This document shows positions 2,832-28,412 of a DNA stretch of 32,663 nucleotides, in pieces. The position numbers and the translations under genes were made by a program. The first letter of the stretch is position 1. Each line of letters begins with the position of its first letter. The notes below the pieces were generated by a model. That model was not told the DNA's origin. It searched no databases and was given only the letters and a program-made list of their open reading frames with translations. This DNA comes from a virus: IMG/VR virus record IMGVR_UViG_3300020385_000035, positions 1 to 32,663 of that record; one strand, 5' to 3'.

Positions 2832-5800
2832 ATGTCAGATAGTAAAGTAAAAATCTCCAATATTCTGGAAAGTCAACTTCCAGAATTTATTTTAGATGAC
2901 AATCCACTCTTCAAAGAGTTTTTGGAGCAATACTATCTGTCTCAGGAACATGAGTACGGAACAACTTATCTTGCAGAGAATATTGCAGAGTTAAAGAATA
3001 TTGACAGTTATGTAGATCTTAAATTTACTGCAACTACACCAAAACTAGTCAAATCTATTGAAAACCTTGATGATACTATTGAAGTATCCAATCATTTAGG
3101 ATTTTTGCCTAAAAATGGACTTGTAAAGATTGGTAATGAAATTTTTACATATACTGGTAAATCAACCTATGCCCAGAAGGTCATGGGGTATGATGCGTCT
3201 ACCAATACCATCAAATTATCCTCCACTGTAGGTTTACAGTCGTTTAGATCTCAAACTATTACATTTTCGACTGCATTTTCAAATGTTGTTGCTGGTCAAA
3301 CGTATTTTGTCACCGAGGTTAAAGACTCAAACAACATCACAATCTCTGATGACCCTATTACTCTTGATGATGTATTGAATCTTGCTGTTGCTTCCCCTGG
3401 AACTGTAGGCGAGAAGGAAGCACTAGACAGATTCCTGACAGGCACTACAGCATTAAGTCAAGATCGTAAATTCGATCTCGAAGATCTCCCCAATGCAATT
3501 AATTTTGCATTTACTGGGTGCATCAGAGGGTTCTCAGGTATTGATAATGTCAGTGATGGCGAGTTCTTAAACTTCAATATTAGTCAAACTGCATCTCATG
3601 ATGTAGGAACACCTCTCACTAATCTTGGATTAGTATTCTTAGCAGAATTTTTCAAGAAGTTTAAGAAAATATTCTTACCTGGAATTGAAAATAGACAATT
3701 CCAAAGCGTTAACATTGATAATATTCTCTCAAGAGCAAGAGACTTCTATAGTTCAAAGGGAACTGACACTTCTTTGAAGATTCTCTTCTCTGTTCTTTTT
3801 GGAAAGTTAGTTGAAATTATAAAACCATTCGACAATACCATTCAGGCATCAACTGCTGATTTCTCACTTTCAGATGTCATAGTTGTCGAAACTATTAGTG
3901 GAAATACAACAAACCTAGGAGAAACGACTGTATTACAAGGAAATGTCGATAATCCAACTGCCAAGGGTATCGTTTCGAGAGTTGAACGCATACTTGTGGA
4001 CGGAAAGAATTTCCATAAGTTATACTTCCCCAAAGGCACTATTGAGAATAAGTTCAATGTCAGTAAAAAGACGAAAGTCTTAGGAGTTGGTTCTACAACT
4101 GGAACTCTGACCGTAGATTCAACTGTTGGATTCCCAGAAAAGGGTATATTCCTTACTCCAGACTTAGCAGAAGTTAGTTATGGACGTAAAAGTTATAACC
4201 AGTTCTTTGATTGTGTAGGACTGGTCAATACTCTTATTGAGAATGATCCTATTACTGATGGAAAGTATATTTTTGGTTACGAGGACAATGACATCAATAA
4301 ACTCGTTACAATGCGAGTTGTTGGCACCATTGTAGGAGTTTCAAGCAACAAAGATACCACCAGTCAGTTTAGGAAAGGAGATATTCTGACTGTAAAGCAT
4401 CTTGGAGATAAAGTAGAAGAATCAGATGTTAAATTTAATAGATGGTTCTATAACAATGTAGTAGTTACAGATGTTCTACCATTAACAGTCAATGGAAAAG
4501 ACATTGTAACTCCAGTTGATCACTTTTTGAACAAAAATGACAGAGTAGATATTATATTAGAAAATGATAAGAGTGTTGTAGAAACAAATGCTAAGGTCAA
4601 CGAAGTTTCCACCAGAAGAAACATTGCATTTACTGGTATTACTACCCTTAGCGCAAATACAAATTATCTTATCAAGAAAAAACTTGATTTTGTAAATTCA
4701 AACCTCAGCAATGGCGATATTTTATCAAATATCCAAAATACCTTTGTCGATAAAGATAAGAACGCATATGTTGCATTTTCGGGACTTCCTGGTTACGACA
4801 GTGTAGAACTTACTGATAGATCTAAGACATTTAATGATACCAATATAGATGAATCTACAGATACAATCACTATCAGTGATCATAATTTCAAAACTGGTGA
4901 ACAGGTATATTATGAGGTAACTTCTGGAACTTCTGGTATTGCGGAAGGAAACTATATTGTTTCCACAGTTGATGCCAACAATATTAAATTGTCATTTAGT
5001 TCTACTTCTCTTGATAAAGCAATTTTTGTTGACATTGCAAGTATTGGATCTTCTAGTACTCATAAACTAACTCCAAGTTCTTTATTTGGATCAAGTTTAT
5101 CTAATCAAAATAATTTTAAGAGAATCTTCAAAACTCCAAAACCAGCGACCAAACATAACGATATTGTTGGACCAATTGGTGTTGCTCTGAATGGTATTGA
5201 ATTTGAATCCCCAGTTTCAGAAGATTCAATTTTTTATGGTCAAATTGAGAAAGTCAATATTCTGAATCCTGGATCTGAGTTTGATATTGTAAATTCACCA
5301 CAAATCGGAATTGCAGATACTAACGGAAGTAGTGGTGCTGTTATTGTAGGTAACTTCTCTGGAAAAGTTGAGGATGTTATTGTTACTTCTCCTGGTTTCA
5401 ATTTTAAAGATACCCCTACTGTAAAAATTACCGGAGGAAATGGAACAGAAGCACTTGCTGAAGCAAGAATGAGAGGATTGACTTATTCTGAGTCTTTCGT
5501 TGATTCTGCACGAGGTAATCAACAATCAGATACGATTCAAATAGCAAATCACAGATTTTTAGATGGAGAAGAAATTATATACTCTTCCACTGGAAATCCT
5601 ATTGGTATTGGAAGTACTAATGTTGGATTTAGTACCGATAAACTGACATCTGGTGCAGTATACTTTATTGCAAAGATTAACGACAACGAAGTTTCACTTG
5701 CTGTCTCAAAAACGCTAGCGTTAAGCAAAACGAGTCTAATTGACATGAATGCTTTTGGAAATGGCGTTCATAAGTTCACATCAAGATTAAACAGAAAAAT

Positions 5801-8800
5801 TATTGATGACATTAATATCATTAGTTCTACTGATGATTTTGCAAACAAGAAAGTAATTGTAGATGCTGTAGCATGGCCACCGGCAGATCAAAGGAATCTT
5901 TATAGTTCTTTCGTTGGTGTCAATACACGATCTAATTACATCTATGCAAGAGATCACCATTTCAAAACTGGCGATAATATTGAATATTCATTTGATGGCA
6001 CTACTATTGCAGGATTATCGACAACAGCAAATTACAAAGTAACTGTCTTAGATAAAGATAGATTTGTTCTAAGCGAAGCAGGAACACCAACCGCTATCAG
6101 TAGTGTTAATTTCAACAATAAGGACTTTGTAAACATTACCAGTGTGGGTGTAGGTACACATACATTCCGGTATCCACCAATTGCCATCACAATCAATGGT
6201 CTTGTTTCCACTGGAGATACTAGTGTAACTGCCTCTTACTATAACGCTACTGGAGTTCCTGTGGTCCGTGGAAGTCTCCAGAGTGTATTCATCAGAAGTG
6301 GTGGTGTTGGATATGGTGTATCTGATATCATTAATTACCAAAAAGACATTGATATTAAAGTTGATACAGGAAAAGAAGGAATTATCAGAGTCATCATTGA
6401 AAATGGAATAATTACTTCAGCATATGTTGCAAATTCAGGTTCAGGGTATACCTCTCCACCATCAATTAATGTTGTTGGTACAGGTACATTAGCAAAACTG
6501 ACTGCTACTATTGTAGATGGTTCTATAACTGCAGTCACAGTTGCCAATGGTGGTAGTGGGTATGATTCAACAACGAGAGTTGACGTAATCCCGACTGGTC
6601 GTGATGCAAAATTAAATGCGGAAGTTCATGAGTGGAAATTGAATAATGTTGAGAGATACAGAGAAGCACTCCAACTTGATAATCCCGGAATACTCAAAAA
6701 AGACAGACTCAATAGAGAACTAGTTCAAACTAAATCTAGTGGTAGCACTAGTTCCAAGTTAGTTGGTTTTTACCCCGGAGCATTTTATCGTCAATTGTTG
6801 AATGATAATGTTGATGTTAACGCAGATGAAAATGTTAAAGATTTTTCACACTCCCCGATAGTTGGATGGGCATACGATGGTAATCCAATCTATGGTCCAT
6901 ATGGGCATGCAAATGCAATCTTTGATGGCGCTGCTACTGGTGGAAATAAAAAGATATTGTCAAGTTATGAACTTGATCCAGAAACCTCAAATGCATTGAG
7001 ACCATCAGGATTCCCTTCCAAAACATTCACTCAGGACTTTGTTTATAAAGCGAGTGGAGATCTGGATGAATTTAATGGAAGATTCTGCAAAACTCCAGAA
7101 TTCCCCGAAGGAACATATGCATACTTCTCGACATTAAATCTTTCTGGTGAACTTGTATATCCATATATTACAAAGTCACATTACAACGAAACTGACGCAT
7201 TTAACTATAATTCTTCTATTGATCAAAGAGATCTTGTCATAAATGATGGATCATATAAGAGGAATGTAACTCACCTTGGGATTAATGATTCATTCAGAGA
7301 TTATCCATTCATCTCTGAAACCATGATAGGAAAGGCAAGAGTTGATGTGGAATCGATTAAATCTTCCAGAATAAATTCCATCAATGTTCTCGAATCTGGT
7401 TTTGACTACAAAGTTGGTGAACAAGTTAATTTTAGTGCAACATCAATTGATGCAGAAATTGGCGAAGTTTTAGGTGATCCTATTATCTCCATAGGAACCA
7501 GCGAGACTGTACTAAAAAATACTATTTTTAGTGTAAGAGGTAATGTAGTAACCGGTGTTACTACAATTCCACATGGTTTCCTTGATGGTGATACCATTGA
7601 AATTTCTGGTATTGGTTCTGCAACTTATAAGAACATTGAAGGTTTCCCTGTGATTGGAGTGGGAACAGTTTTAACTGACATGAAAGTTGCTGTTGCTGCC
7701 ACTTCAGCAACAGGCATTAGTACGGTAATTTCATTAAGTGCTTCTACATTTACAGAAAAATTTGTACCTGATGATATTATCAAGGTTGGTAATGAGTTAA
7801 TGAAGATCGTTAGTATTGATACGGTCAACAACAGATATAGAGTTACAAGACTTGTCAACGATAGTACTGCTAGTACCCATAATGTGGGAGATTTAGTAGT
7901 TAAACAACCTGTAACCTTTAACTTCCTCATGAGTAAGAAGGTACAAAATAAGAACTTAACTATTCCATATAAACAAACCTTTGATATCTCTGCTGTTGGT
8001 ATTGGTTCTACTGCTAAGTCAGTTGTTGTTGGACAGATTGGAGATGCAGATCTTTCAGTTGATATTCCCGCTAGAGCGATTTTCCTACAAAATCACCAAT
8101 TCAAAACTGGTGATGAACTAAGTATTGTTTCTGTAGGAGGAACAATCTTTGCTTCTACAACTGCTGCATTGGGAAATGCTTATGATATTTCTACAGGTAG
8201 TCTCTTTGCAGTCAATGTAGGAACTGATTTCATTGGACTCGCAACTTCTAAGGCATTCGTTGGTATCAATTCCACTCTCTTCTTTACTAGCAGCAGTAGT
8301 GGAAAGAGTCATACATTAGCACAGGTGAAAGATAACATTACAGGTACTGTTAGAAAGGTAACTGCTAGAGTTGTAACTGAAAATAATCATAGATTACAAA
8401 AAGGAGATGACGTTAGATTCCATATAACACCCAATGCTGATCAAGAGTTTGTACTCAGGTTCAATCCAACTCTGAAGAAATTAGTTGTCAACCCCAAGAC
8501 TTTTGCTTCTGCTGGAATTGGAACTGATATTGCATTAGAAAATCATGGATTAAAAACTGGAGATCTTGTCGTTTATGTAAATGCTGTTGGTGTTGCAACA
8601 CCTCTGCAAAACAATAGACAGTATTATGCAATTAGGATAGATGATGATAGGTTTAGACTTGCAGATTCCAAAACTGATGCATTAGCATTCCCATTCCAGA
8701 ATATCACTATAACTGAACAAGGATCTGGAACTCATGAAATTTCAAAGGTAAATCCAAAGTTAGACGTCCTAAATGGCGGAAGAATAGTACTGAATGTTGA

Positions 8801-11800
8801 AGATACAAGTCTTGCAGGATTTGGTATCAGTTTCTACAATGATCAAACATTCCAATCCAAATATGAATCTACTCTGATTAAGAGTGAGGGACAAATTGGT
8901 GATGGTGCTTCTGGATCACGAATTCTAGTTGATGTAAACAAAAATACTCCACCTAGTTTCTACTACAGAATTGAAGGTAGGGATAACAAATTTACAGACA
9001 CACATCCATCATCTGTAGACGAATCCGTAGATAATTATTCTAACATCCGTATAGTGGACTCCAAGTTCAATCAGAACTATACACTCACATCGGTTGGTTC
9101 TACAGTCTTTAATTTTACTGTAGTTGGATCTGCTGAAACAACATCATATGTTCCTGCAGGATTTAGTACAGGATTCTATTCTACTAGTTCGTCAACTGCA
9201 TTTGGTGGAATTCATTCAGTCAAAGTGATAAATGCTGGTGTCAATATTCAAGATTTCCCAGCATACACATCTGTAGGAACTACTACAGGAATTGGTGCAA
9301 GGTTTGAATTAACAGACACAGACATCGGTGAAATTGTAGATGGAACAATTATTGATTCTGGTGTTGAATTTTCAGAGGATAATACTCTTAAACCAGAAGC
9401 AGATAGTTCGCTTGTTTTACAACTTGAAAACAATAGAACACTGGCAGAAGTTGGTATCGTCACTAGTGGAAGTAATTACAATGTCCCACCAACAGTAATT
9501 GCAATTGGAAATGATAGTATCGTTACAAAAGCGACACTTGAAGGTAATGCTGTTGGAAAGGTCGAAGTTATTTCCAGTGACAGTAATCTAAGAGAAGATC
9601 TTAGAATTATTGCAACTAATAACTCAAATGGAATTGGTGTTGTTAATGCTACTTCTAATTCACAGGTGAATGAACTCCAACTTAGATCACCTGATGCTGG
9701 TAATGGATTTGGAGCGAACTTCCCATTTGAATTAGGAGATGAAGTTTTTGTTGAAAATGTACAAATTACAAATGCTGGATCAGCAGATGGATATAATTCA
9801 AGTGATTATGGTTTCAGAACTTTTATTGTAACCGCTCGTAATACTTCTGCCGGAACTGAAAGTATTAGTTACTCAATTAATGGTATAGGCAATACTGGTG
9901 GTACTTACGATATCTCCCAAAGCGCACAATTTGGTAGAGTTATTAAAGTAAGTGATTTGGCAACATTTGAACCAAAATTCTCAGCAATACGATTTGCAGA
10001 AGGTGAAAAGGTTGTTGATATCGATAACTCAAAAAATAATACAGATATATCTGGTGTTGTAGCATCGAATGGTTTCAGTGAGGAATCTGGTATATTAAGA
10101 CTCAATGAAGTCAACGGAGAGTTCAAAAAAGGAACAGTCATTCGTGGCGTTGTGGGTAACTTCAAAGCAGTTGTCACTAAGGTCAATAAATTCGACTTCA
10201 ATTTAGATGTAGGAAGTACTGCAGGAGATTCTGGAGTATGGAAAGATGATGTTGGAAAATTAAGTGATAGTCTCCAAAGACTTCATGATAATGATTACTA
10301 TCAAAGATTCTCTTATAGTATTCGTGGTGAAGTCGAATTGGACAAATGGAAAGAGACCGTTGATAGTTTAAATCACACTGCTGGGTATAAAAATTTCTCA
10401 GATCTGCAGATCATTTCAACACCAGTCAAGAAAGCAGAAGTAAAAATCGGAGTTGGTGAGACTAACTTCAATGCTATCATCAATAGTTCATCATCAGTAC
10501 ATTCAAGATTGAGTTATGACCTTGCATCTGAAGACACAGAAGCAAGAAATCTCTCAAAAATTATCAAATTTGATTCTAAGGTGATCACTGACTTTAATGA
10601 ATCTAGAACTAATAAAGTTCTGCTTATAGATGACATTAGTCCTCAGTTTACTGGTGTTGGAAATAGTGCCGGTCAACTTGTTGGTTTAAGTACTTTCACT
10701 ATACTCAACCAGGGTAATAGTATTCTCCATCACGTTGTTAATCCTGAAACTGATATTAGTACTAGCACTCACATAATTTCAATTACAGATCACAACTTTA
10801 ACACTGGTGAAGAACTTGTATATGATGCAACTAACTCCGGTATTAATACTGGATCACCTATTACCATCAGTTCTATTAATGTTCCTGGTATTGGTGCCAC
10901 TACTATTCTCCCAGAAACGGTATTTGCAATCAATGACAACTCTAATGGTATAAAAGTTGCTGTCAGTAGAACAGATGCACTTGCAGGAACTTCTGTGACA
11001 TTTGTTAGTGTCGCAGGAATTGGGTCAACTCAATCCTTCTCAACAGAGGGTGAACTTGCAACTAGTAGAAGTATTATCACGATTGATAATATTATTCAAA
11101 GTCCCGTTGCAAGAAAACCAGTAGGGGTCGCCATTACTATGGTAGATGCCGTTGGAATTGGTTCAACTCAGATTAAAGTAAGTGATGTATCTAAGATTGG
11201 AGGTAAATCTTTACTTCGTTTCGGTGATGGAGAAATTGTTAAAGTGGATCTGGTGGGCGTAGGGGCGACCAATATTCTCAATGTTCAGCGTGGAGCAATG
11301 GGTACTGTTGCTGCTGCATACCCTGTTGGCACCGCTAGTAGCGTCGTCTCAGGGGACTATAGAATCAAACAGGGTAGGATTTATTTCAGTGATGTACCAT
11401 ATGGACCTACAGGAGTTGCTGGTATAACGACTACATCGACTTTCACTGGAAGAATCTTCTACAGACAGTCATATGTTGAAAATGTAATTCTTGACGATAT
11501 CTCAGAATCATTTGACGGTGCCACTGACCAGTTCCCTCTCATTAGTAGTGGTGTTGCAGTGACCGGTATCACTACTCACCATGGCGCTTTCTTGATTAAC
11601 AATATCTTCCAAAAACCATTCCTTTCACCGATTGGTGGTATTGCTGTTGCCGACTTCACACTTCAGAAGACTGATGATGGAGAGGATATTGATTTTACTG
11701 GAACACCAGTGGTCAGAGATCTTCCTAAGGGTGGCATAATTAATGAGTTTGTAGTTGGAGTTGGCAGTGGATATCAAGTTCCAACTCGTGCTATTGGTGC

Positions 11801-13535
11801 TGCAACAGTAAATGGTTCTGGTGTAATCACAGGAGTTACAGTTGGCGTTGGTAGTACTGGTTTAGTTGCTAGTGGTGCTGGTCACCTATTCCCACCAAAT
11901 GTTTCAATTGCTGATACGATTGGTGGTGGAACAGGTGCTGCAGTAACTGCAACTGTTGGTGCTGCGGGAACAATTACCGGATTCACTGTTGTATCGGGCG
12001 GAACTGGATATAGTCAGGCAGCACCACCTTTGGTATTCACAGATGAACCTGCACCATATAAAAATCTTACACTAATTGGTGGTAATGCTGGTATTCATTC
12101 TGCAACAATAGATGTTGTTGTTGGAACTGGTGGTAGCATAATCTCGTTCAACATGGTAAATCGTGGTCTTGGTTATAAAGAAGGTGATGTTCTTAAACTT
12201 GAAGGTCTTCCATTCAATCCAGCAGTTGGAGTAAGCACCGCTGATTTTACCGTCACTGTTAAGAACAAGTATCAGGACAAATTCTCTGGATGGGCGTTCG
12301 GTGAACTTCTTGAATTAGATGACTTCAGTAATCAATTCAATGGTGCTAAAACTCAATTCCTTCTTACTAGAACAGAAATCAATAAAGAATTCTACAGTAT
12401 TGTTGCCAAAAAAGGTACTGATCTTGTACTTCAAAACAATCTGTTAATTTTCTTGAATGACGTTCTTCAGTATCCAGGAAAAGATTATGAATTTAATGGT
12501 GGTACAAGACTTAAGTTCAAAGAAGCACCAAAAGCAGGAAGTAGTTTTAGAATCTATTTCTATAGTGGTTCTTCATCTGATTATGATGAAGTTGATGTTG
12601 ATCAGACAGTTAAACCTGGTGATAAGTTAAGACTCCAAACTCAAGGTCTTTTCTCCAGTCAAGATCCGAGAATCATTTATCAATTGATTGCTGCTGATAC
12701 AGTTCAGACTGAAACTTATACAGGTGTTGGTATTAATACTGATAACTCATTCTTGAGACCTGTAGAATGGACCAAGCAAACCTCTGATCTTATTATTGAT
12801 GGTGTCAATTTCTCCAAGGTAAGAAATTCCCTTGAACCATTGTATTTCCCAACAACCAATATTATTCAGTCTGTTGTACCTACAGATACTACAATACATG
12901 TTGAAGATGCATGGTCATTCTCACAAGTTGATAATCTTGGACAATCGATAAACAATGTTCAAGTTGTTGGACTTGGAACTACTGCAGTTGTTGAAACAAT
13001 CAATTCGCCCACATATGAAGGTGATTATGGAAAAGTGATTGGCATTGCAACCGATGCAACTGGAATTGGCACAGCATCACCAAGACTTATATTCGACTTC
13101 ATTCCAGATGAAGACATCTTCACACAAGCAGGTGCTCAGAATAAGATTCAATTTACCGGTATTTCTACAGGAGATTACTTTGTAATTAGGAATAGTGTTG
13201 TTGGTTCTGGTATTACTTCAATTGATGATCATGAGACCAATATTGTTGGTACAGGAACAAACTTCGTAGATAATGTTTATCGTGCTGCCTCGGTTGTTAA
13301 CATCGCTGGAACAGATGCAAAACGTGTATCTGCAAATATACTTTCTCTGGTAGGAATTAACACTAACGCTAATCTTGATACAGAGGATAAATTCTACGGA
13401 ACATTTAGTTGGGGTAAGATAAATATAGGAAGCAGAAATGGAAAATCGTTTACTTATCAAAGTAATGATCCACTTTCTGGTCTTAGTACTTCAGCACACA
13501 TTTCAAGAACCGCCCAACTGTCAACCTTCTATTAA
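2832..13535 (+). CDS. 7: Giant gp7-like baseplate wedge protein with YHYH domain, 3567 aa
   Basis: The frame is continuous for 10.7 kb, and its place between gp6 and gp8 is that of T4 gp7, the central wedge protein. Residues about 9-44 (LPEFILDDNPLFKEFLEQYY) and 300-325 (RARDFYSSKGTDTSLKILF, then VEI) match in style the C-terminal core of T4 gp7, which as I recall reads FYSTKG...LFKVLY...VEIE. The conserved core is therefore N-terminal here, followed by about 3200 extra residues. These include eight HxFxTGDxV-type repeats (residues about 684-2654), several GxGYxxPP blocks (about 807-877, 1151-1256, 2969-3125), a YHYH domain (about 1310-1450), an RGxxGTxA module (about 2765-2845) and three LDDISxxFxG modules (about 2596, 2885, 3161). 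T4 gp7 has about 1032 residues. No coiled coil or membrane segment was seen. The protein is probably a virion component projecting from the baseplate. The gp7 assignment is good on position and motif; the function of the extension is unknown. Confidence 0.82.
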   Translation: MSDSKVKISNILESQLPEFILDDNPLFKEFLEQYYLSQEHEYGTTYLAENIAELKNIDSYVDLKFTATTPKLVKSIENLDDTIEVSNHLGFLPKNGLVKIGNEIFTYTGKSTYAQKVMGYDASTNTIKLSSTVGLQSFRSQTITFSTAFSNVVAGQTYFVTEVKDSNNITISDDPITLDDVLNLAVASPGTVGEKEALDRFLTGTTALSQDRKFDLEDLPNAINFAFTGCIRGFSGIDNVSDGEFLNFNISQTASHDVGTPLTNLGLVFLAEFFKKFKKIFLPGIENRQFQSVNIDNILSRARDFYSSKGTDTSLKILFSVLFGKLVEIIKPFDNTIQASTADFSLSDVIVVETISGNTTNLGETTVLQGNVDNPTAKGIVSRVERILVDGKNFHKLYFPKGTIENKFNVSKKTKVLGVGSTTGTLTVDSTVGFPEKGIFLTPDLAEVSYGRKSYNQFFDCVGLVNTLIENDPITDGKYIFGYEDNDINKLVTMRVVGTIVGVSSNKDTTSQFRKGDILTVKHLGDKVEESDVKFNRWFYNNVVVTDVLPLTVNGKDIVTPVDHFLNKNDRVDIILENDKSVVETNAKVNEVSTRRNIAFTGITTLSANTNYLIKKKLDFVNSNLSNGDILSNIQNTFVDKDKNAYVAFSGLPGYDSVELTDRSKTFNDTNIDESTDTITISDHNFKTGEQVYYEVTSGTSGIAEGNYIVSTVDANNIKLSFSSTSLDKAIFVDIASIGSSSTHKLTPSSLFGSSLSNQNNFKRIFKTPKPATKHNDIVGPIGVALNGIEFESPVSEDSIFYGQIEKVNILNPGSEFDIVNSPQIGIADTNGSSGAVIVGNFSGKVEDVIVTSPGFNFKDTPTVKITGGNGTEALAEARMRGLTYSESFVDSARGNQQSDTIQIANHRFLDGEEIIYSSTGNPIGIGSTNVGFSTDKLTSGAVYFIAKINDNEVSLAVSKTLALSKTSLIDMNAFGNGVHKFTSRLNRKIIDDINIISSTDDFANKKVIVDAVAWPPADQRNLYSSFVGVNTRSNYIYARDHHFKTGDNIEYSFDGTTIAGLSTTANYKVTVLDKDRFVLSEAGTPTAISSVNFNNKDFVNITSVGVGTHTFRYPPIAITINGLVSTGDTSVTASYYNATGVPVVRGSLQSVFIRSGGVGYGVSDIINYQKDIDIKVDTGKEGIIRVIIENGIITSAYVANSGSGYTSPPSINVVGTGTLAKLTATIVDGSITAVTVANGGSGYDSTTRVDVIPTGRDAKLNAEVHEWKLNNVERYREALQLDNPGILKKDRLNRELVQTKSSGSTSSKLVGFYPGAFYRQLLNDNVDVNADENVKDFSHSPIVGWAYDGNPIYGPYGHANAIFDGAATGGNKKILSSYELDPETSNALRPSGFPSKTFTQDFVYKASGDLDEFNGRFCKTPEFPEGTYAYFSTLNLSGELVYPYITKSHYNETDAFNYNSSIDQRDLVINDGSYKRNVTHLGINDSFRDYPFISETMIGKARVDVESIKSSRINSINVLESGFDYKVGEQVNFSATSIDAEIGEVLGDPIISIGTSETVLKNTIFSVRGNVVTGVTTIPHGFLDGDTIEISGIGSATYKNIEGFPVIGVGTVLTDMKVAVAATSATGISTVISLSASTFTEKFVPDDIIKVGNELMKIVSIDTVNNRYRVTRLVNDSTASTHNVGDLVVKQPVTFNFLMSKKVQNKNLTIPYKQTFDISAVGIGSTAKSVVVGQIGDADLSVDIPARAIFLQNHQFKTGDELSIVSVGGTIFASTTAALGNAYDISTGSLFAVNVGTDFIGLATSKAFVGINSTLFFTSSSSGKSHTLAQVKDNITGTVRKVTARVVTENNHRLQKGDDVRFHITPNADQEFVLRFNPTLKKLVVNPKTFASAGIGTDIALENHGLKTGDLVVYVNAVGVATPLQNNRQYYAIRIDDDRFRLADSKTDALAFPFQNITITEQGSGTHEISKVNPKLDVLNGGRIVLNVEDTSLAGFGISFYNDQTFQSKYESTLIKSEGQIGDGASGSRILVDVNKNTPPSFYYRIEGRDNKFTDTHPSSVDESVDNYSNIRIVDSKFNQNYTLTSVGSTVFNFTVVGSAETTSYVPAGFSTGFYSTSSSTAFGGIHSVKVINAGVNIQDFPAYTSVGTTTGIGARFELTDTDIGEIVDGTIIDSGVEFSEDNTLKPEADSSLVLQLENNRTLAEVGIVTSGSNYNVPPTVIAIGNDSIVTKATLEGNAVGKVEVISSDSNLREDLRIIATNNSNGIGVVNATSNSQVNELQLRSPDAGNGFGANFPFELGDEVFVENVQITNAGSADGYNSSDYGFRTFIVTARNTSAGTESISYSINGIGNTGGTYDISQSAQFGRVIKVSDLATFEPKFSAIRFAEGEKVVDIDNSKNNTDISGVVASNGFSEESGILRLNEVNGEFKKGTVIRGVVGNFKAVVTKVNKFDFNLDVGSTAGDSGVWKDDVGKLSDSLQRLHDNDYYQRFSYSIRGEVELDKWKETVDSLNHTAGYKNFSDLQIISTPVKKAEVKIGVGETNFNAIINSSSSVHSRLSYDLASEDTEARNLSKIIKFDSKVITDFNESRTNKVLLIDDISPQFTGVGNSAGQLVGLSTFTILNQGNSILHHVVNPETDISTSTHIISITDHNFNTGEELVYDATNSGINTGSPITISSINVPGIGATTILPETVFAINDNSNGIKVAVSRTDALAGTSVTFVSVAGIGSTQSFSTEGELATSRSIITIDNIIQSPVARKPVGVAITMVDAVGIGSTQIKVSDVSKIGGKSLLRFGDGEIVKVDLVGVGATNILNVQRGAMGTVAAAYPVGTASSVVSGDYRIKQGRIYFSDVPYGPTGVAGITTTSTFTGRIFYRQSYVENVILDDISESFDGATDQFPLISSGVAVTGITTHHGAFLINNIFQKPFLSPIGGIAVADFTLQKTDDGEDIDFTGTPVVRDLPKGGIINEFVVGVGSGYQVPTRAIGAATVNGSGVITGVTVGVGSTGLVASGAGHLFPPNVSIADTIGGGTGAAVTATVGAAGTITGFTVVSGGTGYSQAAPPLVFTDEPAPYKNLTLIGGNAGIHSATIDVVVGTGGSIISFNMVNRGLGYKEGDVLKLEGLPFNPAVGVSTADFTVTVKNKYQDKFSGWAFGELLELDDFSNQFNGAKTQFLLTRTEINKEFYSIVAKKGTDLVLQNNLLIFLNDVLQYPGKDYEFNGGTRLKFKEAPKAGSSFRIYFYSGSSSDYDEVDVDQTVKPGDKLRLQTQGLFSSQDPRIIYQLIAADTVQTETYTGVGINTDNSFLRPVEWTKQTSDLIIDGVNFSKVRNSLEPLYFPTTNIIQSVVPTDTTIHVEDAWSFSQVDNLGQSINNVQVVGLGTTAVVETINSPTYEGDYGKVIGIATDATGIGTASPRLIFDFIPDEDIFTQAGAQNKIQFTGISTGDYFVIRNSVVGSGITSIDDHETNIVGTGTNFVDNVYRAASVVNIAGTDAKRVSANILSLVGINTNANLDTEDKFYGTFSWGKINIGSRNGKSFTYQSNDPLSGLSTSAHISRTAQLSTFY
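4866..10840 (+). repeat. Eight dispersed HxFxTGDxV modules in the giant gp7-like protein
   Basis: Eight copies of a degenerate module begin with patterns such as DHNFKTGEQVYY, NHRFLDGEEIIY, DHHFKTGDNIEY, PHGFLDGDTIEI, NHQFKTGDELSI, NHRLQKGDDVRF, NHGLKTGDLVVY and DHNFNTGEELVY, near residues 684, 907, 1042, 1580, 1755, 1852, 1904 and 2654. Most are followed about 20-40 residues later by a second element ending in a pattern like RFRLADSKTDAL or VSLAVSKTLAL. The copies are not tandem but spaced between other modules. This is a protein-level repeat and DNA identity between copies is low. Confidence 0.8.
6760..7180 (+). other. YHYH-type domain within the giant gp7-like protein
   Basis: The translation contains SPIVGWAYDGNPIYGPYG (residues about 1340-1357) and later GDLDEFNGRFCKTPEFPEGT followed by YAYFSTLN (about 1412-1440). 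These are the core signatures of the YHYH protein domain, found in bacterial secreted proteins and in large virion proteins of marine T4-like phages. The biochemical role of the domain is not established. The boundaries given are approximate. Confidence 0.8.
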
Positions 13536-13556
13536 ATGCAGAGTACTAAATTTAGT

Positions 13557-13564
13557 ATAAATAA
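13557..13564 (+). promoter_or_regulatory. Late promoter box (TATAAATA) before gp8
   Basis: This is a perfect TATAAATA, the T4 late promoter consensus, in the 47-base gap between the giant gp7-like gene and gp8. It lies 18 bases before the gp8 ATG at 13583. In T4, transcription starts a few bases downstream of the box, which would leave a very short leader here. It probably begins the unit gp8, DUF4815 protein and the 76-residue protein. Confidence 0.75.
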
Positions 13565-13582
13565 TCAAAAAATCGGACAGAC

Positions 13583-15115
13583 ATGCCTGCCATAATCACT
13601 GACCAATTTAGAATTTTGAATGCGGAGACCTTTGCTAAGTCAGTGACTGGCATTGGTACGACTTCAAACTTTTATTATACCTTTTTGGGTCATCCAGATC
13701 CTACTGCTCCAAATCTTGTAACTCTACCCGAGTATGGTGATGCCAACTGGCCTGTAGACCCAAGAGATTCTTTTGAGCAAGAGGATAGATATCACGACTC
13801 AATACTCTTCCTGAAGAAGATTGGAGTCAATGATTTTGCAAGAGTTGTACCAAGAAATACTTGGTCTGCTGGTATAACCTATGACATGTATAGAAATGAT
13901 TATGATATCACCAATGGAGCGCCACAAACTAATTCAAAGACTTTATATGAGTCTCGTTTTTATGTCGTAAACTCTGAATTTAAAGTTTACATTTGTCTTT
14001 TCAATGGTACAAATAAAAGTAATCCAAAGGGCAAACCATCACAAGAAGAACCAAATCATATCACAGTTGATCCACTGAAACTATCTGATGGATATGTCTG
14101 GAAGTTTCTTTATCAAATTGAACCAGCAGAGATTGTTAAATTTACAACAGATAATTTTATTCCACTTCCTGCAAATTGGGGAGACGCTAATACTGCAGCA
14201 GTAAAGACTGCCGCAGTTCGTGGAAGAATTGAAACGGTAGTCATTAAAGAACCAGGATCTGGTTACGATAATGGGACTACAGTACATAATATTCTTGGCG
14301 ATGGTAATGGGAGTGAAGTTTCTATTACTGTAAAGAATGGGGTAGTAGATGCTGTTGAAGTCACTAAATTCGGACAAGACTATACTAAAGGAATAATCAA
14401 CTTTGATCCTAACAATGGATCTGGTGCAGTATTTGAAGTTATCATTCCACCAAAGGGAGGTCATGGAGCAGATATCTATCGTGAGTTGGGTTCATATAGA
14501 GTGATGATTTACTCTAAGTATGATGCTTCTGCTGATTTTGTAACTGAAAATAGTTTTGCAAGAATCGGTATTGTAAAAAATCCAACTGAATTTGGAAGTT
14601 CAACTGCCATTCTAAATACTAATACTGCAACCAATCTTGGAGCATTGAAACTAAGACCATCAGGATCACCTGGAACGGGACAAACATCCCTTACCAATTA
14701 TCCGAAAAATGCCAAAATTCAACAAAGTGTTGGAATTGGTACTTCAGTTGCTTTTGGTTATGTTGCCTCATGGGATAAGAACACTGGAATTCTGAGATAT
14801 TATCAACCTGTTGGTTTATGTTCTGCGGTAACCGGGTTTCAAAATTTTGATTTTGAAGGCAATGGCAACCCCATAACTACTATCCCTTCCACTGATATAA
14901 CAGGAAGTCCATTAATTCCTGACATTGCATTTGATAATGTTTCTAGTGTAGTAAGTAGTGGAAAAATAATTGATTTGGGTCAGACCTTCACTTCAGGAAA
15001 AGCAAATCCAGAAGTTGAACCTTATTCAGGTGACATTATTTACATTGATAACAGAGCACCAATCAATAGATCTGCATCTCAAAAAGAAGAAGTAAAAATC
15101 GTAGTAGAGTTCTAA
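13583..15115 (+). CDS. 8: gp8-like baseplate wedge protein
   Basis: This 510-residue protein is longer than T4 gp8 (334 residues), which forms dimers in the baseplate wedge and binds gp7, gp6 and gp10. The N-terminal MPAIITDQFRILNAETFAKS and the FYYTFLGHPDP segment are, from what I recall, typical of the marine phage gp8 family. YVWKFLYQIEPAE (about residues 172-184) also fits. Residues about 219-296 contain an inserted glycine-rich block with EPGSGYDNG and FGQDYTKGIINFDPNNGSG, the same GxGY module seen in gp7, gp14 and the DUF4815 protein. This insert probably explains much of the extra length. The gene follows a perfect late promoter box and is separated from the next gene by 4 bases. Confidence 0.85.
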   Translation: MPAIITDQFRILNAETFAKSVTGIGTTSNFYYTFLGHPDPTAPNLVTLPEYGDANWPVDPRDSFEQEDRYHDSILFLKKIGVNDFARVVPRNTWSAGITYDMYRNDYDITNGAPQTNSKTLYESRFYVVNSEFKVYICLFNGTNKSNPKGKPSQEEPNHITVDPLKLSDGYVWKFLYQIEPAEIVKFTTDNFIPLPANWGDANTAAVKTAAVRGRIETVVIKEPGSGYDNGTTVHNILGDGNGSEVSITVKNGVVDAVEVTKFGQDYTKGIINFDPNNGSGAVFEVIIPPKGGHGADIYRELGSYRVMIYSKYDASADFVTENSFARIGIVKNPTEFGSSTAILNTNTATNLGALKLRPSGSPGTGQTSLTNYPKNAKIQQSVGIGTSVAFGYVASWDKNTGILRYYQPVGLCSAVTGFQNFDFEGNGNPITTIPSTDITGSPLIPDIAFDNVSSVVSSGKIIDLGQTFTSGKANPEVEPYSGDIIYIDNRAPINRSASQKEEVKIVVEF

Positions 15116-15119
15116 GAAC

Positions 15120-18100: not shown

Positions 18101-21100
18101 TTCAAGAGAAATTCCAAGAACTCCAGCAGGAAGAGCATCAGACTTTATTGATCTAAGACCAAGAGTTAATGAGTATACTCTTTCTTCAACTGATTCACCA
18201 TTTGCATTTGAATCAAGATCATTCTCCAATTCACTATCTGAAACTGCTGTATCTGACACAACTCTCATTGTTGACTACTCACATTATCTTGGAAGAATTG
18301 ATAGACTTTATTTGACTAAGGATGGAGAGTTCATAATCAAAAAAGGAGAACCTTCAGAGTTCCCTAAATTACCAGTTGCAAATAGTGAAGGATTTGAAAT
18401 CGGTATTCTTAACCTAAGTCCATATATGTTTGATGCGACTTTGAATTCTAGATTGAAACTCATTCCCCATAAGAGATTCACCATGAAAGATATTGGTGTT
18501 ATTGAGGGTAGGGTTAAGAATCTTGAGGACTACACTACGCTTTCTTTACTTGAAACTGATACTAAGAATCTTTCAATTAAAGATCCTAATACTGGATTAG
18601 ATAAATTTAAATCTGGTTTCTTTGTAGATAACTTTAGAAGTCATAATGGTGCTAATCTGAGAGGTGAAGCAAGATTTGATATTGACTTGCAGCGTGGCGA
18701 ACTTCGTCCACGTTCTACTGAAAGAAATGTTACTCTTCAGTTTGAAACAGTATCAACTGAAGCAAATCCAACAAATGCTGATTATGCTTGGGCAAATGAC
18801 TTCTCTGATGTCAATGTAACCAGAAGGGGTCCTGGTCTGACTCTCAACTTTGAAGAAGTTCCTTTCATTGATCAACCTCTTGCAACTAGAACTGAAAACC
18901 TCAATCCATATCATATTGCATTGTATGCTGGATCAATTGATTTGGCTCCCGCTACAGACTACTGGATTGAAGAAGTTGTTCTTGCTACTCCCGATATTGT
19001 TCAGGTTGATTCTGTATTCAACGGTATGGCAGAGTTACTTGCAGTTGAAGACCGTGAGAATGGTGGAATGGCAGCAAGTTGGTGGAACTCTTCTGACTTC
19101 ACCTGGAATGGTGATGACAGAGTGTTTGATACCCAATTAATTAACAGTACTGTAATCGCGTCTTCAAGTGGCGGTAGCAGTAGCACTAGCACCAATACTA
19201 CATTCTCTGATTTTGTACCAGGTTTAGGTATTCAAGCAACTACAACAACTACTACCAGTAATAGTAGTTGGTCAAGCACCACATTTGAAGACGAATTTAG
19301 AGATACTGCATTTGAAACTGGTACTGAGAGTGTATTTGGTCTTGAACTCTCTTCGGGTAATGAAAGTATAAGTCTTGGAGATAGAGTTATTGGTATAGAG
19401 ACTATCCATAACTGTCGTTCCAGAAATATTCATGTAACTGGTACGAAGTTGAAGCCAAATACAAAGTATTATGTCTTCATGGAAAGTGTTGATATGAATG
19501 AGTTTGCTTTCCCCAAGCAATTACCAGTGATTATGAACAAAGGTTCATTCAAGACTGGTGATACTGTTAGTAGCATTGGTATACAGCAAGTTGGAGCAGC
19601 ACAGATTCGTTTCCGTGCAGCACAACACAATCATGAGATTGGTCCATTTAATGCTCCAACAACTGTACTTGATTCAACTAGTTCTTCTTATTCTGGAACT
19701 TCAGAATTTATCAATATTGACCTTGCAGATCTTTCCAATCAAACTCAACCAGCTAATCTTGGATATGTCAAGGAAGGAATGGTCCTCGTTAATTCTGATG
19801 GAACTGCAGAATGTACTATAGGTTCTACTCAACTGATGACTGATGATAAGGGTGAGATACAATTCTCACTTCACATCCCAGACCCAGTTGTTGCTGCTAA
19901 TCCTAAGTTTACTACTGGATCTAGCACAATTAGATTAACTTCATCTGCTATCAATTCACCTGTATTAGACCCAGGTGGTAGTTCTGCCGAAACTGATTAT
20001 CTGTCATCTGGATATGCCACAAGTTATGAGGAGCAAGTCCTTTCCATCAAACAACCAGAAATTGATAGAAGACTGGTTGAGACCCTGGATGCTGTCAGAC
20101 TCACACAGGATGAAAGATTTGAGACTAGAACTGAAACGGAATCTTCTTCTAGTTCCAATTCCAGCAGTGTTACTGGCGAATACTTTGACCCACTTGCACA
20201 ATCTTTCCTGATTACTGCTGAAAATAGTAATGGAACAAATTCGGATGGTGTGTATATAACCGGTGGTGAAGTATACTTCAAGACCAAAGATCCTTCAATT
20301 CCAGTTACAGTTCAGATCAGAACAATGAGAGATGGTACTCCAACAGTAACTGTTGTACCATTTGGTCAAGTTAATATTCAATCAAGAGATATTAATGTTT
20401 CCGATGACGGTAGTGTTCCTACAGAATTTAAATTCGATACTCCTGTTTATCTACAAACTGGATATGAATACGCTCTGACACTGGTTTCACCTACAGAGAA
20501 GTATCTGGCATTCATCACTAGAATGGGTGAAGAGGATCTTGCCCTGAAGGCAGTCTATAACAAGCAACCATATCTTGGTTCACTGTTTAAGTCACAGAAC
20601 CAGTCAACTTGGACTCCAAGTCAGTTGGAAGACCTTAAGTTTAAACTGAATAAGGCAAAGTTTGTAACTAATACTCCAGTTTCAGTTTCGTTCTATAATA
20701 GCGAACTGCCTAGAGTTGGTATTAGAAAGAATAATCCAGTTACTGCATTCTCTAAGAGACAGTCTGTTGGTATTGCAGCAACAGTTGAACCATTTGCATT
20801 TGGTAATGAAATTCAGCAAGGAACTAATAGTGGTAACATCTTTGCATTCGGTGGTCCTCTGAAAGTTGGTATGACAACTGCACTGGTTCAACCAACTGCT
20901 GGTGTTGGTCTAACTGACTCAACATTTAATGGTGTTGGATTTGAATCTCTCACTGGTTTCGGCGTATCCTGTACTGCAAATGTTACTGTTTCCGGTGGAG
21001 CAGTTACTCAAATTCAAATTGCTAATGGTGGTGCTGGATATCAGGTTGGAGACCTTCTGTTGATGAATCAACTTGGCAATACTGGAAGTGGTGTAAGAGT

Positions 21101-22738: not shown

Positions 22739-22741
22739 ATA
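22734..22741 (+). promoter_or_regulatory. Late promoter box (TATAAATA) before the fibre cassette
   Basis: This is a perfect TATAAATA that overlaps the stop codon of the 76-residue gene and lies 29 bases before the ATG at 22771. It probably drives the unit of fibre genes plus gp13 and gp14. The match to the T4 late consensus and its placement in one of the four large gaps are the support. Confidence 0.75.
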
Positions 22742-22770
22742 CCAGTAGATAGATCTAACTGACTGTAGTA

Positions 22771-23109: not shown

Positions 23110-23114
23110 AACCT

Positions 23115-23339: not shown

Positions 23340-23342
23340 GCC

Positions 23343-25454: not shown

Positions 25455-25458
25455 ACTT

Positions 25459-25626
25459 ATGAATAGTGATGTTGATGTGAATATCTTGATTAAGAATTAT
25501 CATTCTAAAATTTCTTCATTAATGAATCAAAATATTCTCCTAGAAGCAAAATTGGAGTCGTTAAAAAACGACTTCATTGAACTGCAAAACAAACTTAAAT
25601 ATCAGGAAGCAGGTATCGAAGAATGA
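25459..25626 (+). CDS. Small coiled-coil protein, about 55 aa
   Basis: This short protein begins MNSDVDVNILIKNYHSKISS and consists almost entirely of a predicted coiled coil: Leu, Ile and Met are spaced at heptad-like intervals through LMNQNILLEAKLESLKNDFI to the end. An in-frame ATG at 25438 would add seven residues and overlap the fibre gene by 17 bases, but it has no visible ribosome-binding site. The ATG at 25459 has GGAGGA 13 bases upstream, so I chose it. The stop overlaps the gp13 start (ATGA), implying translational coupling. It may be an assembly helper or a fibre-neck adaptor; no family was recognised. Confidence 0.7.
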   Translation: MNSDVDVNILIKNYHSKISSLMNQNILLEAKLESLKNDFIELQNKLKYQEAGIEE

Positions 25627-26444
25627 GCAAACCATCGACCAGACAAGAGTTGATCGATTATTCTCTTAGGAGACTTGGATATCCAGTTCTGGAAATCAAC
25701 GTAGATGATGATCAGATTGACGATCTGGTGGATGATGCAATTCAACATTGGCAGGATTATCACTTTGATGGTTATCAAAGAATGTTCCTAAAGCATAAAG
25801 TTACTAAAGCAGAAAAAGATATACTGAAGACTGGGATTACTACAACTACTGTAAGTAATCCTTCTTCAACTGGTGTGCAATCAGTGGCATGGGATGAAGG
25901 GCAAAACTACCTTCAACTCCCAGACCATATTATTGGAATCAATAAAGTTTTCAAGATGGACAACAGCACCATTTCTAGTGGTCTGTTTAATATCAAATAT
26001 CAACTGTTCCTGAATGATGTTTATTACTACGGAGCACTTGATCTCTTAAACTACTCAATGACCAAAACGTATCTTGAGGATTTGAGTAGACTTATAACTC
26101 CAGATACTCAATTAAGATTCAACAGAAAGAATAGCAGATTATATGTAGATATTGATTGGGGAGAATTTAATGAGGACAATTATCTCGTACTAGATTGTTA
26201 CAGATTACTTGATCCTGCAGATTCTGCATCAATCTACAATGATTGGTGGTTAAAGAAATATACTACTTCACTCATAAAAAGGCAGTGGGGTCAGAACTTA
26301 ATCAAGTTTCAAGGAGTAGCACTTCCAGGTGGAGTTCAACTTAACGGAAGACAACTCTATGATGATGCTGTAGCAGAATTACAGGTGTTGGAACAAGAAC
26401 TCAGAGAGACTTATGAAGAACCACCTTTCGATTTGATAGGTTGA
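25623..26444 (+). CDS. 13: gp13-like neck (head completion) protein
   Basis: This 273-residue protein is in the T4 gp13 position, just before gp14. T4 gp13 (309 residues) forms the neck ring below the portal together with gp14, closing the filled head so a tail can join. The N-terminus (STRQELIDYSLRRLGYPVLE, then INVDDDQIDDLVDDAIQHWQ) resembles the helical N-terminus of head-tail connector proteins. The region NDWWLKKYTTSLIKRQWGQN (about residues 216-235) and the C-terminal ETYEEPPFDLIG fit what I recall of marine phage gp13. It starts in the stop of the previous small gene and is followed after 6 bases by gp14. Confidence 0.87.
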   Translation: MSKPSTRQELIDYSLRRLGYPVLEINVDDDQIDDLVDDAIQHWQDYHFDGYQRMFLKHKVTKAEKDILKTGITTTTVSNPSSTGVQSVAWDEGQNYLQLPDHIIGINKVFKMDNSTISSGLFNIKYQLFLNDVYYYGALDLLNYSMTKTYLEDLSRLITPDTQLRFNRKNSRLYVDIDWGEFNEDNYLVLDCYRLLDPADSASIYNDWWLKKYTTSLIKRQWGQNLIKFQGVALPGGVQLNGRQLYDDAVAELQVLEQELRETYEEPPFDLIG

Positions 26445-26450
26445 TTTATC

Positions 26451-28412
26451 ATGCCATTAAATTCTTACTTTTTACAAGGATCCAAAGGAGAGCAGAGACT
26501 CGTCCAGGATCTTATTAACGAGCAACTAAAGATATTTGGACAAGATGTTGTCTATCTTCCAAGGAAGATGGTGAGTCAGGATGCAATCCTCAACGAAGCA
26601 ATTGCAACAGAATTTGATGACTCATTTAGGATGGAAGCATACCTAGCAAACTATGATGGTTTTGCAGGTAATGGAGATATTCTATCAAAGTTTGGTGTCC
26701 AATCAACGGATCAAATCACTCTTATAGTTTCAAAAGAAAGATACGAAGATTTCATTAGTCCTTTCTTAGAAGGAGAGGATGTTCTAGTATCATCGAGACC
26801 ACAGGAAGGAGACTTGATTTATCTCCCTCTTGACAATACCATTTTTGAGATCAAGTATGTAGAAGCAAAGAAACCATTCTACCAACTGAATAAGTTATTC
26901 GTCTATCAGTTGAGTTGTGAAGTCTTTGATGCTGCACTTGATGAACTGGTTGATACTGGAATCCAAGAAGTCGATGAGGCAGTATCCGACTTTATCTTCA
27001 CGACCAAACTTACAATGGTTGGTCTTGATGCTCAGCAGGCAACAGCAACAGTTCAACTTGCTAAAGATACTGGTGGTGGTCCTGGTGATTTTGCTGTAAA
27101 TAGCGTCGATCTCATCAATGATGGAACAGGTTATACAGTTCCACCTAGTATTGACTTTGAGGCACCAGGATCAGGTGGAATAACTCCAACTGCTATCGCA
27201 ATAATGACTCAAAGGACTGGTCAAGTAGGTCAGTCAATTGAAAGTATTCAAATCACTAATCCAGGAATTGGATATACACAACCACCAAAAATTACAATCC
27301 GTTCAGCAAATACATTTGGTACAGGTGCTGCTGCAACAGCAATTATTACTGAAGGTGCTCTTGGACCTGGAAACGTCACATTTGCTGGTGTTGGATATGG
27401 GGTAACACCTACTGTTTCTATTGAAAGACCTGATCCAGCCGCAACTGCAACCGCAACAGTGGGTGCTGGTGGAACTATTACAGCATTGAATTTAACATTT
27501 GGTGGTTTTGGATATGTTACTGCACCACCAGTAACTTTCTCTGCACCCTCAAGACCTGGTGCTATTAATTCAGCACAGAATCAAAGTAATGGTACAGGAT
27601 ATCAAGTTAATGATGAATTAACCATAGTAAAAAATCTTGCTGGTACTGCAGGCACAGAGGCAGTTCTTAAAGTTACAAGTATCAGTGGAGCGGGTGGTGT
27701 AACAGGATTTAATGTAGATTATAGTGGTTTTGGTTATGAAGCAAGTGATTTGAGCAATTCTAATGATTACTATGAAGCAAGGGGCGGAAATGGAAATGAC
27801 AACTTCCGTATCCAAATAGCATCAATTATAACTGCATCAGGAATAACCGCTGTTGGTGTTGCAAGCATAACTGCTGGAATTGTTACTTCAATTACATTAA
27901 CTAATCCTGGTACTGGATATAAGAAGGATGTTTCACCAACAGTCACAGTATCTAATGATGATTCAATTAAGGATCAAACTGTTCAAAGAGCAACTGCAGT
28001 TGCAATCCTATCTGTTAATGATACGCTTAGTGGTATTCGATACACTAATGCTGGTGCTGGATATACAGCAGCACCACCTGTCGTCATAGAGGTTCCAGCG
28101 TCTGGAATCAATACAGACAACTATTTACCTGGAGAACTCGTTAGAGGCGTTTCTACGGGCACTACAGCGCATATTCATAGTTGGGATGCATCTACTAACG
28201 TATTGCAGATTACAAATGCATCCAGTAATTTTGCACTTGGAGAAATCGTTGTAGGTATTGGAACTTCTAATCTTGGATCTGATGCTGCCAGAAGAATTGC
28301 AGCAATATCTGACCAAGATGAGTTCGATGAATTTGCAGATAATATCGAAATAGAATCAGAAGCAGACAACATTCTTGACTTTACTGAAAGGAACCCATTT
28401 GGAGAAATCTAA
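26451..28412 (+). CDS. 14: gp14-like neck protein with large GxGY-repeat insertion, 653 aa
   Basis: The first 180 residues carry the gp14 pattern: NSYFLQGSKGEQRLVQDLIN, DVVYLPRKMV, MEAYLANYDGFAGNGD, GDLIYLPLDNTIFEIKYVEA and FYQLNKLFVYQLSCEVF. The last 30 or so residues (ESEADNILDFTERNPFGEI) look like the conserved end. T4 gp14 has about 256 residues, so roughly 400 are extra. Residues about 216-550 hold at least seven GxGY-type repeats (DGTGYTVPPS, PGIGYTQPPK, GVGYGVTPT, GFGYVTAPP, GTGYQVND, GTGYKKDVSP, GAGYTAAPP). Residues about 560-615 hold a module of the form LPGELVRGVSTGTTAHIHSW. T4 gp14 works with gp13 at the head-tail junction. The insertion probably decorates the neck. Its purpose is unknown, but a carbohydrate or surface-binding role would be plausible. 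Confidence 0.85.
   Translation: MPLNSYFLQGSKGEQRLVQDLINEQLKIFGQDVVYLPRKMVSQDAILNEAIATEFDDSFRMEAYLANYDGFAGNGDILSKFGVQSTDQITLIVSKERYEDFISPFLEGEDVLVSSRPQEGDLIYLPLDNTIFEIKYVEAKKPFYQLNKLFVYQLSCEVFDAALDELVDTGIQEVDEAVSDFIFTTKLTMVGLDAQQATATVQLAKDTGGGPGDFAVNSVDLINDGTGYTVPPSIDFEAPGSGGITPTAIAIMTQRTGQVGQSIESIQITNPGIGYTQPPKITIRSANTFGTGAAATAIITEGALGPGNVTFAGVGYGVTPTVSIERPDPAATATATVGAGGTITALNLTFGGFGYVTAPPVTFSAPSRPGAINSAQNQSNGTGYQVNDELTIVKNLAGTAGTEAVLKVTSISGAGGVTGFNVDYSGFGYEASDLSNSNDYYEARGGNGNDNFRIQIASIITASGITAVGVASITAGIVTSITLTNPGTGYKKDVSPTVTVSNDDSIKDQTVQRATAVAILSVNDTLSGIRYTNAGAGYTAAPPVVIEVPASGINTDNYLPGELVRGVSTGTTAHIHSWDASTNVLQITNASSNFALGEIVVGIGTSNLGSDAARRIAAISDQDEFDEFADNIEIESEADNILDFTERNPFGEI
27095..28105 (+). 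repeat. GxGYxxPP repeat block inside gp14
   Basis: At least seven degenerate copies of a unit of roughly 40-70 residues, each with a turn G(T/I/V/F/A)GY, usually followed by PP and a short beta strand (for example TNPGIGYTQPPKITI and TNAGAGYTAAPPVVIEV). The intervening stretches are rich in Ala, Thr and Gly (ATATATVGAGGTITALNL). The same unit occurs in gp7, gp8 and the DUF4815 protein of this window. Confidence 0.85.

Follow-up and report, generated by a model that had tools for sequence, protein, structure and literature searches.

A GxGY module in baseplate and neck proteins of a marine T4-like phage and its probable kinship with Domain I of the T4 sheath protein gp18

In a fragment of a T4-like marine phage of the Kyanoviridae type (IMG/VR virus record IMGVR_UViG_3300020385_000035, whose 32,663 bases are here together called the window), four structural proteins carry copies of one short module built around a G-x-G-Y (GxGY) motif: a giant gp7-type protein, gp8, a DUF4815 protein and the neck protein gp14. 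This module probably is a protruding domain resembling Domain I of the T4 sheath protein gp18, and gp18 Domain I, an insert in the tailspike Dpo31 and the arrays of cyanophages would then belong to one family, of which Pfam covers the T4 form only. Our overall reading, to which we assign a probability of roughly 0.6, is that a Gp18-Domain-I-like docking or adhesion domain decorates the baseplate and neck proteins of these phages. With it, hundreds of repeats that so far lack annotation, located in giant baseplate and neck proteins of abundant marine phages, would receive a fold as well as a testable role connected with published T4 mutants.

An earlier note on this DNA had proposed that GxGY turns, often followed by PP, recur in these four virion proteins and at least seven times in gp14. 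All peptides quoted there are in frame in the window proteins, and the motif is found 17 times (six times in gp7, once in gp8, twice in the DUF4815 protein and eight times in gp14) and not at all in the other 14 listed proteins of the window. Composition shuffles yielded on average 0.93 motifs in gp7 and 0.24 in gp14, and the counts observed were reached in none of 2000; taken by itself, the motif lacks significance in gp8 (346 of 2000 shuffles) or the DUF4815 protein (142 of 2000). Because motif counts fall short in the latter two, their membership was settled by hidden Markov models (HMMs) built from the copies of a single protein. The gp14-only HMM recovers gp7 (3.7e-14) and the DUF4815 protein (6e-6), and the gp7-only HMM recovers gp14 (1.6e-9), the DUF4815 protein (8e-6) and gp8 (0.002), whereas the best value among reversed decoy proteins was 0.06, none falling below 0.05. 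PHROG profiles, which were made independently, cross-match the same segments of the window proteins. Judged from these sequence comparisons, the observation of one homologous unit is real and can be regarded as confirmed.

The unit comprises about 40 residues with the consensus A.A.V..G.I..V.V.NGGSGY...P.V.I.GGGG.G and a median spacing of 43; its Gly, Tyr and Pro positions are conserved across units, and its faces vary. A single Pro after the motif is the family norm, PP following only 6 of the 17 motifs, and in this respect the initial description was too generous. In total, we count eight units in gp14, at least five in gp7, two in gp8 and, in the DUF4815 protein, one together with a degenerate partner. 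Units recur in pairs that form one domain, namely at residues 225 and 264 of gp8 and at 1927 (degenerate) and 1971 of the DUF4815 protein. The single gp8 copy described before, around GSGY225, has therefore to be supplemented by a second unit at GQDY264, and in the DUF4815 protein one good unit stands, preceded by the degenerate AGVGL1927; the second GSGY of that protein (residue 2017, nt 21168) forms no unit. Across the window and marine T4-like phages, HMM search recovered 159 copies in 35 proteins; no copies were found by HMM in RB43 or Vibrio phage Va3. Searches of Pfam, NCBIfam and PDB with the window's own proteins revealed no family for the module, the sole Ig-like Pfam match for the gp8 insert being a weak one to EEP_ig-like (E 0.06).

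Kinship with T4 gp18 is suggested by structure as well as by sequence profiles. The AlphaFold2 (AF2) model of gp8 (43 sequences, mean predicted local distance difference test score, pLDDT, of 83.6 and about 90 over the insert) overall matches T4 gp8 (1n7z, Z 18.9), and its residues 217-288 align with residues 99-186 of T4 gp18, within Domain I (98-188; 3foa), at Z 6.2 and a root-mean-square deviation of 2.6 A over 71 residues; with Z below 8, this is supportive and not proof. Two further gp18 structures follow with Z 5.8 and 5.3, and nothing else scores as high there among the matches listed. GSGY225 of gp8 falls on GSNY107 of gp18, provided that the start of the alignment is free of gaps. Like the module, T4 Domain I (PF22639; 3FOA, 3J2M) is inserted in a core domain and contains two G.[GN]Y units, IDYTISTPGSNYAVGDKITV ... 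GKIKKINIPTGKNY, which lie 41 residues apart (gp18 107 and 148); unlike the module, it is present as one copy in the sheath protein only and has an extra helix and a longer stretch past the second unit. Paired motifs of this type about 40 residues apart, within one inserted domain, characterise gp8 (225/264, the second being GQDY), gp18 (107/148), Dpo31 (457/501) and the DUF4815 protein (1927/1971, the first degenerate). When whole cyanophage genomes were searched with the Pfam profile Gp18_dom_I (PF22639), seven sub-threshold matches in six genomes were obtained, all on G.[GN]Y motifs, and five of the seven overlap previously called units, which occupy 0.3 to 2.3% of the genomes concerned. Overlapping positions of the profile phrog_26741 are matched by T4 Domain I taken by itself (6e-5), by the array of gp14 (6e-7) and by the insert of the DUF4815 protein (1e-4). 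In both of these tests the sequences were independent of our choice. An HMM of the GYxVGD subclass, which was picked after T4 had been read, finds gp18 Domain I of five phages at 2e-7 to 2e-3 (decoys at 0.08 or above).

Several results should be weighed against this kinship and the role derived from it. All marine Gp18_dom_I matches reach 10-17 bits against a curated cut-off of 27 bits, and we therefore call the module Gp18-Domain-I-like and not a member of PF22639; in the window, none was found among the matches listed. When the gp8 insert and gp18 Domain I were compared profile to profile with hhalign, no significance was reached (probability 4, shuffles reaching 3); as this is noise level, sequence homology is not claimed on it. 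Of the two folded proteins, gp8 and gp14, the latter showed no gp18 match in its module region among the matches listed, and a VIA Z near 6 can reflect a common arrangement. Finally, fibre or host binding by the marine copies is something that we only infer from the T4 analogue.

A further relative is provided by Dpo31, residues 439-505 of which are the only PDB match of the unit profile (E 0.1). The Dpo31 protein scores 3.8e-7 against the unit HMM (set against ten shuffles and the reverse), and both of its units, GAGY457 and GSGY501, lie in D3*, a domain (residues 434-536) which is inserted and protruding, activity having been placed by its authors at or near the D3-D3* interface (PMC13317679). 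D3* (28LX, 28MG, 8CK1; Carin-1 of Cobetia) resembles the module by sequence, as an inserted, protruding domain with two units, but belongs to a podovirus tailspike, where it sits beside a catalytic beta helix, and was called Ig-like by its authors. By analogy with these two solved relatives, T4 gp18 Domain I and D3*, the proposal of a surface domain appears sound. The proposed restriction to one phage lineage, in contrast, has to be given up, since the same domain type is found in gp18 of the Straboviridae, in D3* of a Cobetia podovirus and in a few proteins of Planctomycetota and Bacteroidota. In the latter groups, 12 of 199 and 7 of 198 genomes, respectively, are matched by the unit profile, and some bacterial proteins contain 8 to 14 copies, in one case alongside passenger-repeat and Ig-like domains; some of these matches may be prophages or binning errors. 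Using tblastn, the array of P-RSM4 was found in 296 phage records, all of them cyanophages, and in no plasmids, and the gp8 insert in 370 records at 610 places, often two per genome; among these records are Pelagibacter phages and a single Xanthomonas phage. One contig of a Euryarchaeota metagenome-assembled genome (PBHZ01000012), on which a gp7-type protein of the cyanophage kind with 16 units is encoded, probably is a mis-binned phage contig.

The domain type as such is already known (T4 PF22639, Dpo31), as is, from a survey of domain mosaicism (PMC10684548), the sharing of domains among phage structural proteins. That survey describes domains common to different functional classes of tail and neck proteins, as here, but reports that receptor-binding proteins and neck passage proteins are being shuffled at present, whereas the exchange considered here looks old; the GxGY domain is not named in the portion consulted. 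The families PHROG 460, 701, 2885, 5342 and 26741 (head closure, virion structural, baseplate wedge, tail fibre and unknown) have profiles that contain the module and cross-match window segments, but they are whole-protein families in which the module is undefined. Such cross-matching through the module may be a source of misannotation, as probably for the gene in gp7 position of HTVC008M (locus 33435-36485), which carries GxGY units and is annotated as head closure Hc2, a label probably due to the shared module. What is new is the link of gp18 Domain I and Dpo31 D3* to the tandem arrays of gp7 and gp14, a prior description being possible outside the open PubMed Central literature.

In gp8, gp14 and the DUF4815 protein, the units lie, as had been suggested, between conserved cores; they occupy fixed sites, and these sites display domain insertion, loss and replacement. 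The gp8 pair lies between conserved blocks in all nine aligned marine phages, including Pelagibacter phage HTVC008M, and is lacking in RB43. In gp14, the aligned units come after the neck core and before the conserved DFTExNPFG of the C-terminus, with no copies in P-RSM4, S-CREM1, HTVC008M and RB43 and eight in the window; the 74 complete gp14 genes from IMG/VR loci contain 2 to 8 copies by HMM, a range uninformative on the frequency of module-less gp14 because these loci were chosen by their similarity to module-bearing gp14. When array copy numbers were inspected for a preference for even values, related loci duplicated one another and the second unit frequently escaped detection. The DUF4815 site holds the GxGY pair in the window, S-SSM7, S-SM2 and ACG-2014f, another module in S-RIM2, S-CREM1 and P-RSM4, and almost nothing in P-HM2 and HTVC008M.

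As to its architecture, the GxGY unit would represent half of a small beta domain; within the unit, strand A would be followed by a turn, strand B, the loop with GxGY and, last, a short strand C. The AF2 model of gp14 shows a recurring pattern of strand A (AATAIITEG), strand B (IESIQITNP), GxGY loop and short strand C; its pLDDT is 88-95 for residues 211-310 and lies below 50 in most of 371-460. A pair of units, each about 40 residues long, would build a compact domain of 75-105 residues of the gp18 Domain I type. This domain presumably occupies exposed loops or forms tandem strings separating the cores of proteins of the baseplate (gp7, gp8, DUF4815) and the neck (gp14), and insertion at such places would leave the virion core unchanged and decorate its outside. 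Most likely, this domain would act as a docking and adhesion surface, holding tail fibres against the tail or neck or weakly contacting the host surface, with the region of the GxGY loop as the putative contact site, as when T4 Domain I binds the retracted long tail fibres. In T4, Domain I projects from the tail, takes no part in sheath-sheath contacts and binds the baseplate and the retracted long tail fibres, and the substitutions G106S, S175F and A178V inhibit fibre retraction (PMC3004832). The three residues G106, S175 and A178 fit the T4 sequence only in Met-less numbering; G106 then is the first Gly of GSNY, and it is because the retraction mutant G106S hits this residue that we propose the loop region as docking surface. 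By analogy, the marine copies may do the job of T4 Domain I. The modules diverge faster than their surroundings in gp14 (39% identity versus 58% in the cores) and in gp8 (37% versus 50 and 60% in the flanks), which, together with the tolerance of changes in copy number, fits an exposed accessory surface, with the caveat that residues 346-475 of gp8 diverge as fast as the insert. A far-reaching extension, which we put forward as doubtful, would place T4 sheath Domain I within a large family of docking domains that so far has no name. In marine T4-like phages, the function of Domain I would have moved off the sheath to tandem arrays on the neck (gp14) and baseplate (gp7, gp8, DUF4815); six gp14 arrays would form a collar that holds the folded fibres and replaces both the whiskers and the sheath Domain I of T4, and array length would be adjusted to the fibre type.

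The earlier note further regarded the module as mobile or recombining. That the module is present, absent or replaced at conserved sites (gp14 with 0 to 8 copies, gp8 compared with RB43, the swap at the DUF4815 site) agrees with this, but current mobility does not follow: in a comparison of 663 units, 321 of 332 gp14 units and 64 of 65 gp8 units (385 of 397) had their nearest relative in another phage among units of the same protein. Nor do copies from different proteins within one genome resemble each other more than orthologous copies do, the best identity to another protein's copy within a genome averaging 0.29 as against 0.70 for the same protein across genomes. In this comparison the window gp7 was labelled apart from "gp7-like", and its five cross-label neighbours are no evidence of exchange; a within-genome identity value of 1.00 probably stems from overlapping P-RSM4 loci. 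The window contains no long, near-identical DNA repeats between units, and the identity between any gp14 unit and any gp7-type unit stays at or below 0.60 over 40 aa. Judging from these sequences, the spread of the module looks ancient, the copies now evolving in place. A cassette swapped today among gp7, gp14 and fibres and driving host-range shifts could explain why the number of gp14 units varies between related phages and why the DUF4815 site is replaced; in view of the positional orthology kept by gp14 and gp8 units and the missing close gp14/gp7-type pairs it nevertheless is very improbable. The notion of a merely compositional or convergent Gly-Tyr turn in four proteins that are unrelated in these segments could draw on the hhalign result and on the insignificant motif counts in gp8 and the DUF4815 protein, but it is largely refuted, and hardly credible, given the recoveries by one-protein HMMs with failing decoys, the cross-matching PHROG profiles and the second place that the single gp8 insert finds in many cyanophage genomes.

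More weight should be given to two readings that accept the homology and dispute the role. The units could be structural filler, that is, spacers or stiffeners that keep distances fixed and make large proteins of the baseplate and neck more stable, without a binding partner of their own; a near-constant tandem pitch, conserved Gly, Tyr and Pro beside variable faces, and the gp8 pair at one site throughout the aligned marine phages would suit such a purpose. Related gp14 proteins, however, work with anything from 0 to 8 copies, complete replacement is tolerated at the DUF4815 site, and T4 Domain I and D3* protrude rather than span, which leaves filler unlikely. Somewhat less probable still is a carbohydrate-binding module, the pair forming a lectin-like domain with which the lipopolysaccharide or capsule of the host is sampled. 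D3* is part of an exopolysaccharide depolymerase whose activity was placed at or near the D3-D3* interface, a LamG-like insert apparently interrupts the gp14 array of S-SSM7, and bacterial arrays occur with Ig-like and passenger repeats; against this, the module matches no carbohydrate-binding Pfam family and has no conserved aromatic or acidic set beyond the Tyr of GxGY, which itself lies in a structural turn.

Table 1 Coordinates of the module and its surroundings in the window (iE, independent E-value of the module HMM unless stated otherwise)
Feature	Position	Strand	Evidence and remarks
gp7-type giant baseplate wedge protein (3567 aa)	2832..13535	+	phrog_2885 baseplate wedge subunit, E 0; S-SM2 gp7 syntenic; at least 5 units
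gp7 degenerate unit candidate (GFNF replacing GxGY)	5334..5456	+	iE 0.08, weak
gp7 unit GVGY1158	6246..6350	+	iE 5.9e-5
gp7 unit GSGY1203 (NSGSGYTSPPSINVV)	6384..6488	+	iE 3.4e-9
gp7 unit GSGY1241 (NGGSGYDSTTRVDV)	6489..6608	+	iE 6.4e-11
gp7 weak unit GSGY2978	11724..11831	+	iE 0.38 only
gp7 unit GTGY3057 (GGTGYSQAAPPLVF)	11934..12053	+	iE 6.5e-9
gp7 unit GLGY3112 (GYKEGD form)	12102..12221	+	iE 1.2e-6
gp8 unit 1 (EPGSGYDNGTTV, GSGY225)	14192..14314	+	iE 9.6e-9; inserted relative to RB43 gp8
gp8 unit 2 (VTKFGQDYTKG, GQDY264)	14315..14386	+	iE 0.0076; with unit 1 superposes on T4 gp18 99-186
DUF4815 two-unit domain: degenerate AGVGL1927, then GAGY1971	20898..21095	+	second unit iE 1.7e-8; pair in S-SSM7, S-SM2 and ACG-2014f homologues
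gp14 conserved neck core (aa 1-175)	26451..26975	+	Pfam T4_neck-protein 3.5e-28; fold matches T4 gp14 9mkb, 9lu5
gp14 eight-unit array (aa 210-552)	27078..28106	+	HMM iE 1e-4 to 1e-12
gp14 C-terminal part: second shared module and conserved tail DFTERNPFG	28131..28409	+	alignment of gp14 proteins

The genes of the window are arranged in the order gp25, gp6, gp7-type, gp8, DUF4815 (VrlC-like), small proteins, a phrog_15769 protein, gp13, gp14, gp15, gp16 and gp17, which matches T4-like cyanophages such as S-SM2, and nucleotide similarity to named phages is confined to short stretches. The name gp7 is conventional, as it is based on phrog_2885 and synteny, and a published comparison reported T4 gp7 to be missing in pelagi- and cyanomyophages, apparently substituted by VrlC (PMC7029224). 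Shortly past the three-unit array of gp7, a YHYH domain is encoded (PF14240, 5e-25; window 6840-7139, gp7 aa 1337-1436), and the same order of array and YHYH domain is found in gp7 of P-RSM4 and S-CREM1. A further repeat of gp7, DHxFKTGExxxY, is present as four DNA-level copies of 26 nt with 73-85% identity (4875-4900, 5949-5974, 8088-8113 and 10785-10810). The giant gp7-type protein of S-CREM1 (locus 3219-17800) contains a Pfam Phycobilisome match (PF00502, aa 4594-4694, 4.6e-12, three stretches) above the curated cut-off.

In gp14 of S-SSM7 (locus 34704-36992), about 190 residues resembling a concanavalin/LamG-type domain appear from the alignment to interrupt the GxGY array. A second shared module, F..GE.V.G..SGA.A.V..WD..T..L.V.N..G.F..GE.V.G, occurs at window 28131-28300 (gp14 aa 561-617), in gp8 aa 350-440 and at the DUF4815 site of S-RIM2, S-CREM1 and P-RSM4, where it takes the place of the GxGY pair. 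Structure matches for parts of this second module include many rows of EF-Tu/eIF2-gamma and F1-ATPase beta-barrels; the EF-Tu rows were rejected as a match of the gp14 GxGY array, as they span residues 184 to 621 and resemble the second module. Likewise, a Pfam Phage_GPL match on gp14 503-575 was taken as chance, reaching only 0.085 with the array alone. In the neighbouring gp15, the C-terminal part (aa 242-319, window 29164-29397) matches several tail-fibre PHROGs, and this protein may have an added domain as well.

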